Origin: Candidatus Latescibacterota bacterium | Lineage (GTDB): Bacteria > Latescibacterota > UBA2968 | Assembly (NCBI GenBank): GCA_022823725.1 | Contig: JAJEHL010000049.1 | Location: 310,001 to 374,000, forward strand | DNA: 64,000 nt | Reading direction: 5' to 3' | In this document: one piece after another, positions 16,189 through 18,886 of the stretch | How positions within the stretch are numbered: position 1 is the stretch's first letter | Layout: each line of letters opens with the position of its first letter | The notes under the pieces: model-generated | Told to the model about the DNA's origin: nothing | Database searches by the model: none | What the model saw: the letters and a program-made list of their open reading frames with translations, nothing else | Position numbers and translations under genes: made by a program

Positions 16189-17175
16189 CTACTCCTGATC
16201 ACTGGCGACTGATTCAGGCATAAATGCTGTGGTGAAGAGCAGGTTGAGATCAATTTTTTGGTCGATCATGCCCAGGCTGTGGAGGATATCCTGTGTTTGT
16301 TGCCATTTTGCTTTTGTTTGAGCACCCAGGCCCTGTTGTTGTGTGTCGGCGCTTTGCAATAGAGGAATCAGATATTTGAAATTGGCGCGATTGAAGGCCT
16401 CGTCGCTTTCGGGGCGTGCGGCCATGTAGGCTGCTACCGCCTCTTCGGGATGATCGACTGCATGTTGCCATCCGCGCAGGCTCGCCCGCAAAAAGCGTTT
16501 GATCAGATCGGGATTTTCTTTCAAAAAAGACTCGTTGGCAATGATGTTGGTGCTATAGACATCGATACCGTAATCCGATAGGGCAAGGCGATTGACCGCG
16601 TGGCCCTGGAGTTCGACTGTGACGGGTTGATCTTCGGTGTATCCGAGCATGGCATCGACTTGACCCGCGAGGAGCGGTGCCGGGCTGGATTCGCTCATGC
16701 CCAGGAGTTGTATGTCTTCTTCGGGGATATTCTGGTGGCGCAAGAAGGCTTGAAATTCGCGGTGTTTTGTGCCGCCGATATTGACGCCGATGCTTTTGCC
16801 GATCAGGTCTTGCGGTGTTGTGATATTTTTTTCTACGAGCGAATAAACGACCACCGGCGTCTGTTGATTGATCACGGCGAGCGATATAATCGGGATGTTG
16901 CGCGCTCTCGCCATAACAGTAGCCGATCCGCTGGCTACGCCGAGGTTGTAGGTACCGTTGCCCACGACGCGGGCTGAAGTGGGAGCACCACTGCCTTCGA
17001 GAATTTCGATCTCAAGACCTTCTTGTTCATAAAAGCCCTTTTGTTTGGCGACAAAAAAGCCCGCGTGTTCCATCTGCGCTTTCCAGTCGAGAATGAATTG
17101 CACCTGTGTCTTGTCTGTACTCGTACAAGACAGAGTGATGAGTGCGAGGGCAAGAGCGATGAATATTTTTTGCAT
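16189..17175 (-). CDS. ABC transporter substrate-binding lipoprotein, NMT1/SsuA-like
   Basis: The 328-residue protein has a lipoprotein signal (ALALITLSC, Cys17) and the NMT1/THI5-like fold. Typical stretches are FILDWKAQMEHAGFFVAKQKG at the start of the mature protein and GKSIGVNIGGTKHREFQAFL near residue 130. It should bind a small ligand of the aliphatic sulfonate, taurine, nitrate or pyrimidine-precursor class at the outer face of the inner membrane. It lies 13 bases downstream of the permease gene. No ATPase gene accompanies the pair. A GGGCGG/CCGCCC hairpin (16167-16189) lies just after the stop without a clear U tract. Confidence 0.88.
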   Translation of the reverse strand: MQKIFIALALALITLSCTSTDKTQVQFILDWKAQMEHAGFFVAKQKGFYEQEGLEIEILEGSGAPTSARVVGNGTYNLGVASGSATVMARARNIPIISLAVINQQTPVVVYSLVEKNITTPQDLIGKSIGVNIGGTKHREFQAFLRHQNIPEEDIQLLGMSESSPAPLLAGQVDAMLGYTEDQPVTVELQGHAVNRLALSDYGIDVYSTNIIANESFLKENPDLIKRFLRASLRGWQHAVDHPEEAVAAYMAARPESDEAFNRANFKYLIPLLQSADTQQQGLGAQTKAKWQQTQDILHSLGMIDQKIDLNLLFTTAFMPESVASDQE

Positions 17176-17188
17176 GAGAATACTCCTT

Positions 17189-17971
17189 TTAGCGACCTAT
17201 GGTTTCAACGGTGCCGCCCCAGCGGCGCAGGGCAGTTTTTTCGAGGCCGTCAACGAGGAGAAAAAGGCCCGTGCCCATGCAACCGAGCGCGAGCAGAGCG
17301 GCAAACATCAAATCGGTGGCGAGTTCTGAATTGGCCAGGCGAATGAGGTGGCCCAGTCCCGCACTGGAACCGACAAATTCACCGACTACAGCGCCAATCA
17401 CACTGAGCGTGATACACATTTTGAGTGCGGCAAAAAGATAGGGGATGGCATTGGGCAAGCGCACTTTAAAAAAAATTTGTCGTTGACTGGCCGAGAGCGA
17501 CCGCATCAAGTCGAGGATGGATTTGTCAACGGATAAGAGGCCGCGCGTGGTGTTGATCACAACGGGAAAAAAGGAAATGAGGCCCGCAATAATCACTTTG
17601 GGCAAAAGGCCAAATCCAAACCAGATGACGAAGACAGGAGCCAGTGCCTCTTTGGGAAAGGTCTGGGTAGAGATGACCAGTGGATAGAGCATCCGTTCGA
17701 TCAGGCGGGAACGGGCCATTGCTATGGCGCAAAGTAGCCCCGATGATGCGCCTGTAAAAAAGCCGCCGAGGGCTTCGGTGAGTGTGACGAGGCCATGAGA
17801 GAGCAGGAGGCGATGGGATGCGGCGAATTTGGACAGGATTTGAGAGGGCGGCGGGAGTATAAATGCGGCGACATCGAGACTTCGCACGATCACTTCCCAC
17901 AAGCCGAGTAGCAAGATGATAAACAGCCCCGAAAGGGCGTATTCTCGGACAAAAAAATGGATTAGTTTCAC
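17189..17971 (-). CDS. ABC transporter permease, SsuC/TauC-like
   Basis: The 260-residue protein has about six membrane helices and the EAA-like loop region around SLSASQRQIFFKVRLPNA. It is typical of SsuC/TauC/ThiX permeases of the nitrate/sulfonate/taurine class and pairs with the lipoprotein encoded just downstream. The start is GTG at 17971 and overlaps the stop of the lectin-like gene by 4 bases (GTGA). The expected ATP-binding subunit is absent; a shared ATPase must be encoded elsewhere if the transporter works. Confidence 0.88.
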   Translation of the reverse strand: MKLIHFFVREYALSGLFIILLLGLWEVIVRSLDVAAFILPPPSQILSKFAASHRLLLSHGLVTLTEALGGFFTGASSGLLCAIAMARSRLIERMLYPLVISTQTFPKEALAPVFVIWFGFGLLPKVIIAGLISFFPVVINTTRGLLSVDKSILDLMRSLSASQRQIFFKVRLPNAIPYLFAALKMCITLSVIGAVVGEFVGSSAGLGHLIRLANSELATDLMFAALLALGCMGTGLFLLVDGLEKTALRRWGGTVETIGR

Positions 17972-18342
17972 AGGTCAAACAAGATGATTTGAGCGTGGAG
18001 AGAACCGGCCTGGCTATGGTATTCGGGATTTTCATTCATCGCGAGAAATAGCGGGCCTTCGTAGGGCGAATAAAAATCGAAATAATTGCCCACTGAAAGA
18101 ATGGGACTGTCGGCAATGCGCCCAACGAGTGCCCCCACATTTGTGCCGGGCAAGAGATATTGGTCATTGGCGGGACGCCCTTCAATACCATCGGGCCCAC
18201 ACCAGACAATTGTAAGCGGACGCATCTCGGGAGACCAGAGGCCCTCTGCCGTGATAATTACGCGCTGGTCTTTTTGTATCTGGAGATACATTTCTTGCCA
18301 CACGGCGTTTGGACGAACGGTTTTGGTAATTGTGAATGCCAC
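17968..18342 (-). CDS. PA-IL (LecA)-like lectin domain protein
   Basis: The 124-residue protein has almost the length of the galactose lectin LecA of Pseudomonas (about 122). It matches its layout: W near residue 32, a WGPxG-like WCGPDG, then LLPGTNVGALVGRI, then a YSPYEGPLFLAMNENPEY block. LecA binds sugar through calcium held by Tyr36, Asp100, Thr104, Asn107 and Asn108. Here the equivalent Asp-Val-Pro-Gly-Thr loop reads ENPEYHSQAG, so calcium binding may be lost or altered. No signal peptide is visible. The start is GTG at 18342, with GAGGAG about six bases upstream. It overlaps the ABC permease gene by 4 bases, an unusual pairing. Homology is judged by eye only. Confidence 0.6.
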   Translation of the reverse strand: MAFTITKTVRPNAVWQEMYLQIQKDQRVIITAEGLWSPEMRPLTIVWCGPDGIEGRPANDQYLLPGTNVGALVGRIADSPILSVGNYFDFYSPYEGPLFLAMNENPEYHSQAGSLHAQIILFDL

Positions 18343-18427
18343 AGCTTCTCCTCGGTTTGGGTTGTAAAACGGCTCGCAAAGTACGCCTGTATAAAATGCT
18401 TGTCAAGCGGAAAGTTCGAGAAAGAAA

Positions 18428-18455: not shown

Positions 18456-18490
18456 AGGTGCCCGTTGAAAATTTTCAGGAGGAGATATCC

Positions 18491-18886
18491 GTGGATCGCA
18501 ATACCAATTTTGACAAAACCATGAATACCATTATTGGGCGTGGGGCAGTTTCTGAAGGTCATTTTCAAATTGAGGCCGGTGTGCGTGTGGATGGGGTCTT
18601 GAAAGGTGAACTCGAGTCATCCGGTACGTTGATTGTGGGAATGTCGGGTGTTGTTGAGGCCAATGTAAAGGTGCGCGACGCATTGGTTAGCGGGCGCATT
18701 GTGGGGAATCTGGTGGCTGAAGAGAAAGTGCATTTGCAGTCGCAAGCTACTTTTATTGGAAAAATTCAAACGGGTGTCTTGATTGTTGAGGATGGTGCTG
18801 TCTTTAAGGCTGACTGCGATGCGGGCAGTGAGATACAAGAGGTTGATCAGACCGAGAAAGAGAAAGAATCATCAAATGAAACATAA
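18491..18886 (+). CDS. Bactofilin family cytoskeletal protein
   Basis: The product has about 131 residues, mostly the bactofilin right-handed beta-helix: repeated short strands such as TIIGRGAVSEGHFQIEAG, VDGVLKGELESSGTLIVG and ALVSGRIVGNLVAEEKV. An acidic, disordered tail follows. Bactofilins polymerise without nucleotide and place cell-wall enzymes or shape structures at the inner membrane. I chose the GTG at 18491, because AGGAGG ends 8 bases before it; a longer frame from GTG 18458 has no such site and starts at the predicted transcription start. It is monocistronic, with its own promoter and terminator. An M23 peptidase, a common bactofilin partner, is encoded 29 kb away, not adjacent. 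Confidence 0.9.
   Translation: MDRNTNFDKTMNTIIGRGAVSEGHFQIEAGVRVDGVLKGELESSGTLIVGMSGVVEANVKVRDALVSGRIVGNLVAEEKVHLQSQATFIGKIQTGVLIVEDGAVFKADCDAGSEIQEVDQTEKEKESSNET

Follow-up and report, generated by a model that had tools for sequence, protein, structure and literature searches.

A lectin-like gene next to an importer permease

The window analysed here is a 64,000-nucleotide stretch of a Candidatus Latescibacterota genome (contig JAJEHL010000049.1). On its minus strand lies a stand-alone open reading frame of 124 aa (17968..18342), whose product is predicted by alignment, structural modelling and Foldseek to adopt a LecA/PA-IL fold and has no signal peptide. The frame begins with GTG, and a GAGGAG at 18348..18353 (minus strand), read from the sequence, is its likely ribosome-binding site. 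Its TGA stop shares four bases, GTGA (17968..17971, minus strand; tcac on the plus strand), with the GTG start of an ABC importer permease gene (BPD_transp_1, E 1.4e-32; 17189..17971, minus strand), a junction that was also followed in relatives. A 124-residue protein overlapping an ABC permease by four bases had been described in the first-pass annotation, and both the frame coordinates and the junction confirm it. The divergent neighbour is a bactofilin gene (18458..18886, plus strand; Pfam 1.8e-23), which we treat as context that is probably not part of the function. A bactofilin gene also lies beside the lectin-like gene in most loci of family f1 and at locus L077.

The permease is followed by a ThiY-like substrate-binding protein (SBP) of the NMT1/THI5 family (16189..17175, minus strand; NMT1 family E 1.2e-57). 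Its best solved relatives include the FAMP-binding protein ThiY (8e-27) and the fungal THI5/THI13 proteins, with taurine-binding proteins far behind (2.7e-8). The sulfonate/taurine-type label first given to the importer should therefore loosen, the SBP being nearer to the pyrimidine-binding ThiY/THI5 proteins, and we set aside a taurine or sulfonate importer on this similarity. Going by sequence matches, the system is better stated as resembling ThiY/THI5 importers. An Rfam search of the window returned only tRNAs, so no TPP riboswitch backs a role in thiamine metabolism.

Across 58 orthologues, drawn from the Latescibacterota class and from a second phylum, the start residue and the length of the lectin-like protein are conserved to at least 97%, and so are 29 alignment columns, among them R10, P11, W15, Q16, W36-S37-P38, W47-C48-G49, N68, D89, N103 and Q111-A112-G113. 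Values of dN/dS within the genus and family are 0-0.07 for pairs with unsaturated dS. Given this conservation of start, length and columns and these low ratios, the frame is, as judged by sequence comparison, a real gene under strong purifying selection. Neither a signal peptide nor a leader is seen in the lectin-like proteins, as all 58 members begin directly in the first strand.

A single copy of the gene is carried by 46 of the 47 genomes in the Latescibacterota class and by 77 of the 85 in the second phylum. Among the genomes sampled, no strong match was found in other members of its own phylum, and none in about 320 further genomes except three that belong to the second phylum. Searching the literature for lectins in combination with both phyla turned up no paper, and lectins go unmentioned in the genome paper on Latescibacteria.

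A predicted LecA fold and its altered calcium-site loop

Evidence for the fold came only from an alignment profile and a model, not from single-sequence searches: as a single query, the window protein had no match in Pfam, NCBIfam or the PDB. When an alignment of 35 orthologues was used, PllA was the only PDB profile match (E 0.11). The Pfam PA-IL family (PF07828) was matched by 7 of these 35 orthologues (best E 1.3e-4), with no genome of the Latescibacterota class above its curated cut-off and the window protein itself unmatched. The AlphaFold model of the lectin-like protein has a pLDDT of 93.2, and all 11 of its Foldseek matches to the PDB with E<=0.001 are LecA, EclA-N or PllA, the best being LecA (E 4e-6, TM 0.80, 21% identity). 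This is the comparison of a predicted structure with LecA that the first-pass annotation had proposed, and its outcome agrees with the PA-IL layout claimed there. We regard the LecA/PA-IL jelly-roll fold as established by prediction.

With LecA, PllA and the N-terminal domain of EclA (PF07828) the window family shares the jelly-roll beta-sandwich (TM 0.70-0.80), the length and an aligned C-terminal site loop. It differs from them in its low identity (about 20%), in the small fraction of members that PF07828 recognises and in being a core gene in two clades. Weaker relatives in the other genomes sampled (E 1e-5 to 1e-13) are PA-IL-like domains, most of which form part of longer open frames. At loci L081 and L116-L120, domains similar in sequence across most of their length (E about 1e-7 to 1e-14) belong to larger proteins from several other lineages, in two copies at L120, whereas members of the window family are stand-alone, leaderless proteins of 120-128 aa. 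The PA-IL-like family seems wider than PF07828 captures. Separately, PF07828 matches in frames of 655-694 aa in f2 genomes (L083-L086) were rejected, since they appeared to be short spurious matches lying in membrane proteins or in out-of-frame ORFs.

In EclA-N, calcium is bound by the side chains of Asp114, Asp121 and Asn122 and by two backbone oxygens, a pattern that its authors describe as mirroring other known calcium-binding lectins (PMC11875179). These canonical ligands (Asp, Asp/Asn and Asn side chains with two backbone oxygens) are not retained in the window family. At the positions of the LecA side-chain ligands D100, N107 and N108 the family carries E or D, then N in most members, then an invariant Q, and its loop has one residue fewer than that of LecA; a changed calcium-ligand loop had also been noticed in the first reading of the sequence. 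Across the 58 members, residue 104 is E in 50 and D in 8, residue 110 is N in 47, C in 6, S in 3 and D in 1, and N103, Q111, A112 and G113 are present throughout. The changes of D to E and N to Q thus usually lengthen two of the three side chains by one methylene. The loop (N103, E/D104, Q111-A112-G113) ranks among the most conserved segments of the protein, which argues that the remodelled site (D/N/N to E/N/Q) is in use rather than decayed.

Changed metal ligands would also be compatible with a LecA-fold scaffold that works through contacts with other proteins and has no small ligand; the conserved W, C and P residues might then be its contact surfaces. We consider such a scaffold unlikely, as the old site loop would not be expected to rank so high in conservation. 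Still less does the family look like LecA-like adhesins or glycan-binding lectins that are released without a classical signal and bind external glycans. The fold itself suggests such a role, and to our knowledge LecA likewise has no classical signal peptide. However, the canonical calcium ligands are altered throughout the family, core-gene conservation with a very low dN/dS is unusual for an adhesin, and the protein co-occurs with a kinase (see below), making release as an adhesin quite unlikely in our view.

Neighbouring genes and a candidate partner kinase

All 22 genomes of families f1-f3 have the permease gene directly downstream of the lectin-like gene, often with the four-base overlap, and the SBP gene comes next wherever the contig extends that far. 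The related ATPase gene lies in convergent orientation to the SBP gene in several genomes of f1, f2 and f3, and at an unlinked site (G000:C34) in the genome of the window. Both the permease and the SBP belong with the ThiXYZ/NMT1-THI5 importers, in which we know of no lectin-like component. The related importers of family f4 differ in this respect: the nearest one (ATPase-permease-SBP) is located elsewhere in the genome and has no lectin-like gene with it. In the second phylum, the lectin-like gene is preceded by two cyclophilin-like genes or by others, and permease matches with E<=1e-30 occur in only 50 of 83 genomes. Sampled members of the lectin-bearing families f175, f242 and f251 have no permease match at this threshold. 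The gene pair, whose recurrence had been suggested as a check on the original claim, thus recurs across three families, but the lectin-like gene stands without this neighbour in f4 and in the second phylum, and so in most of the genomes that carry it. The importer is therefore one of several contexts and not a constant associate.

Other neighbours recur as well. The divergent neighbour in f4 is often a MurD-like ligase, named by reading the sequence. In the second phylum (L113, L132-L149), tandem genes for cyclophilin-type peptidyl-prolyl isomerases immediately precede the lectin-like gene at 15 of 23 loci.

Directly downstream of the lectin-like gene, all 24 f4 genomes encode a protein of about 345 aa. 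It gave only a weak match to Bud32, and a Pfam search with one member returned no match. Its model (pLDDT 92.9) matches APH-type kinases (E about 1e-7, TM 0.5-0.6), with N-acetylhexosamine 1-kinase, homoserine kinase and aminoglycoside kinases among the relatives. Residues K45, E64, D195, N200 and E213 (D in a few members) are conserved in the family, and the catalytic Lys, Glu, Asp and Asn of the APH fold are present. Judged by the model, the f4 partner is an APH-fold small-molecule kinase. Fold and catalytic residues are common to it and to N-acetylhexosamine 1-kinase, homoserine kinase and corramycin phosphotransferase, from which it differs by its low identity (10-14%), by the lack of a Pfam match in the member searched and by an x-T-D or similar motif in place of HGD.

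The kinase is also found in all f1-f3 genomes, at loci unlinked to the lectin-like gene. At such loci in f1 and f2 (L087-L097) it follows a DUF362-like protein, often with a UbiA-type prenyltransferase resembling decaprenyl-phosphate phosphoribosyltransferase upstream, both named by reading the sequences.

In a survey of 386 genomes, strong matches to the lectin-like protein and to the kinase fell in the same 49 genomes, while weak matches to either one elsewhere did not overlap. Both are present in 74 of 83 second-phylum genomes and both are absent from G386-G389. Five genomes have only one of the pair; four of these are at most 81% complete, and the fifth (G453) is 94% complete. In the second-phylum loci, the kinase was not seen adjoining the lectin-like gene. 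The lectin-like protein travels with the kinase more faithfully than with the importer, although this co-occurrence does not represent many independent events, because it is confined to two clades.

These distributions bear on a role within the neighbouring ThiY-type importer, in which the protein would sit on the cytoplasmic face of the permease as an accessory or regulatory subunit; an accessory subunit had been one option in the first-pass annotation. The fixed pairing in f1-f3 is the reason that we demote this reading rather than drop it, but we hold it to be very unlikely for a protein conserved in single copy across the class and the second phylum, with the kinase and not the permease as its neighbour throughout f4 and with strong permease matches missing from several lineages that keep it. 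The importer operon of f1-f3 is best read as lineage-specific co-expression, not as evidence of a transporter subunit.

A possible intracellular role

We tentatively favour, at a little under an even chance, a cytoplasmic ligand-binding protein of LecA fold that is functionally tied to the kinase, with the importer operon as a lineage-specific arrangement. The stand-alone protein would probably reside in the cytoplasm and may bind a small ligand, such as a sugar or polyol-like metabolite, in its remodelled pocket; ligand binding inside the cell was also a suggestion of the first-pass annotation. It would serve the same pathway as the kinase, where it might sequester the enzyme's substrate or product, sense it or present it. 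The missing leader is no proof of cytoplasmic residence, since LecA too, as far as we know, is without a classical signal peptide. Against the tie to the kinase stand the unlinked position of the kinase in f1-f3 and the strength, within those families, of the permease pairing.

A more specific form of the favoured reading is an intracellular lectin-kinase module, in which a re-engineered and possibly metal-free pocket would hold a sugar-like metabolite of an orphan APH-type kinase as part of a core pathway in two phyla. We regard it as speculative, although conceivable; if true, we would know of no earlier LecA-fold protein with a housekeeping role. The window family is best described as a distinct subfamily, new within a known fold and unexpected in its role and lineage, and not as a new kind of system. 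Work on LecA-type lectins has dealt with them as adhesins and host-interaction factors in a few Proteobacteria. That a leaderless branch is strictly conserved as a single-copy gene in two uncultured clades suggests that the LecA fold also has a core cellular role, and its tight co-occurrence with an orphan kinase offers a concrete candidate partner.
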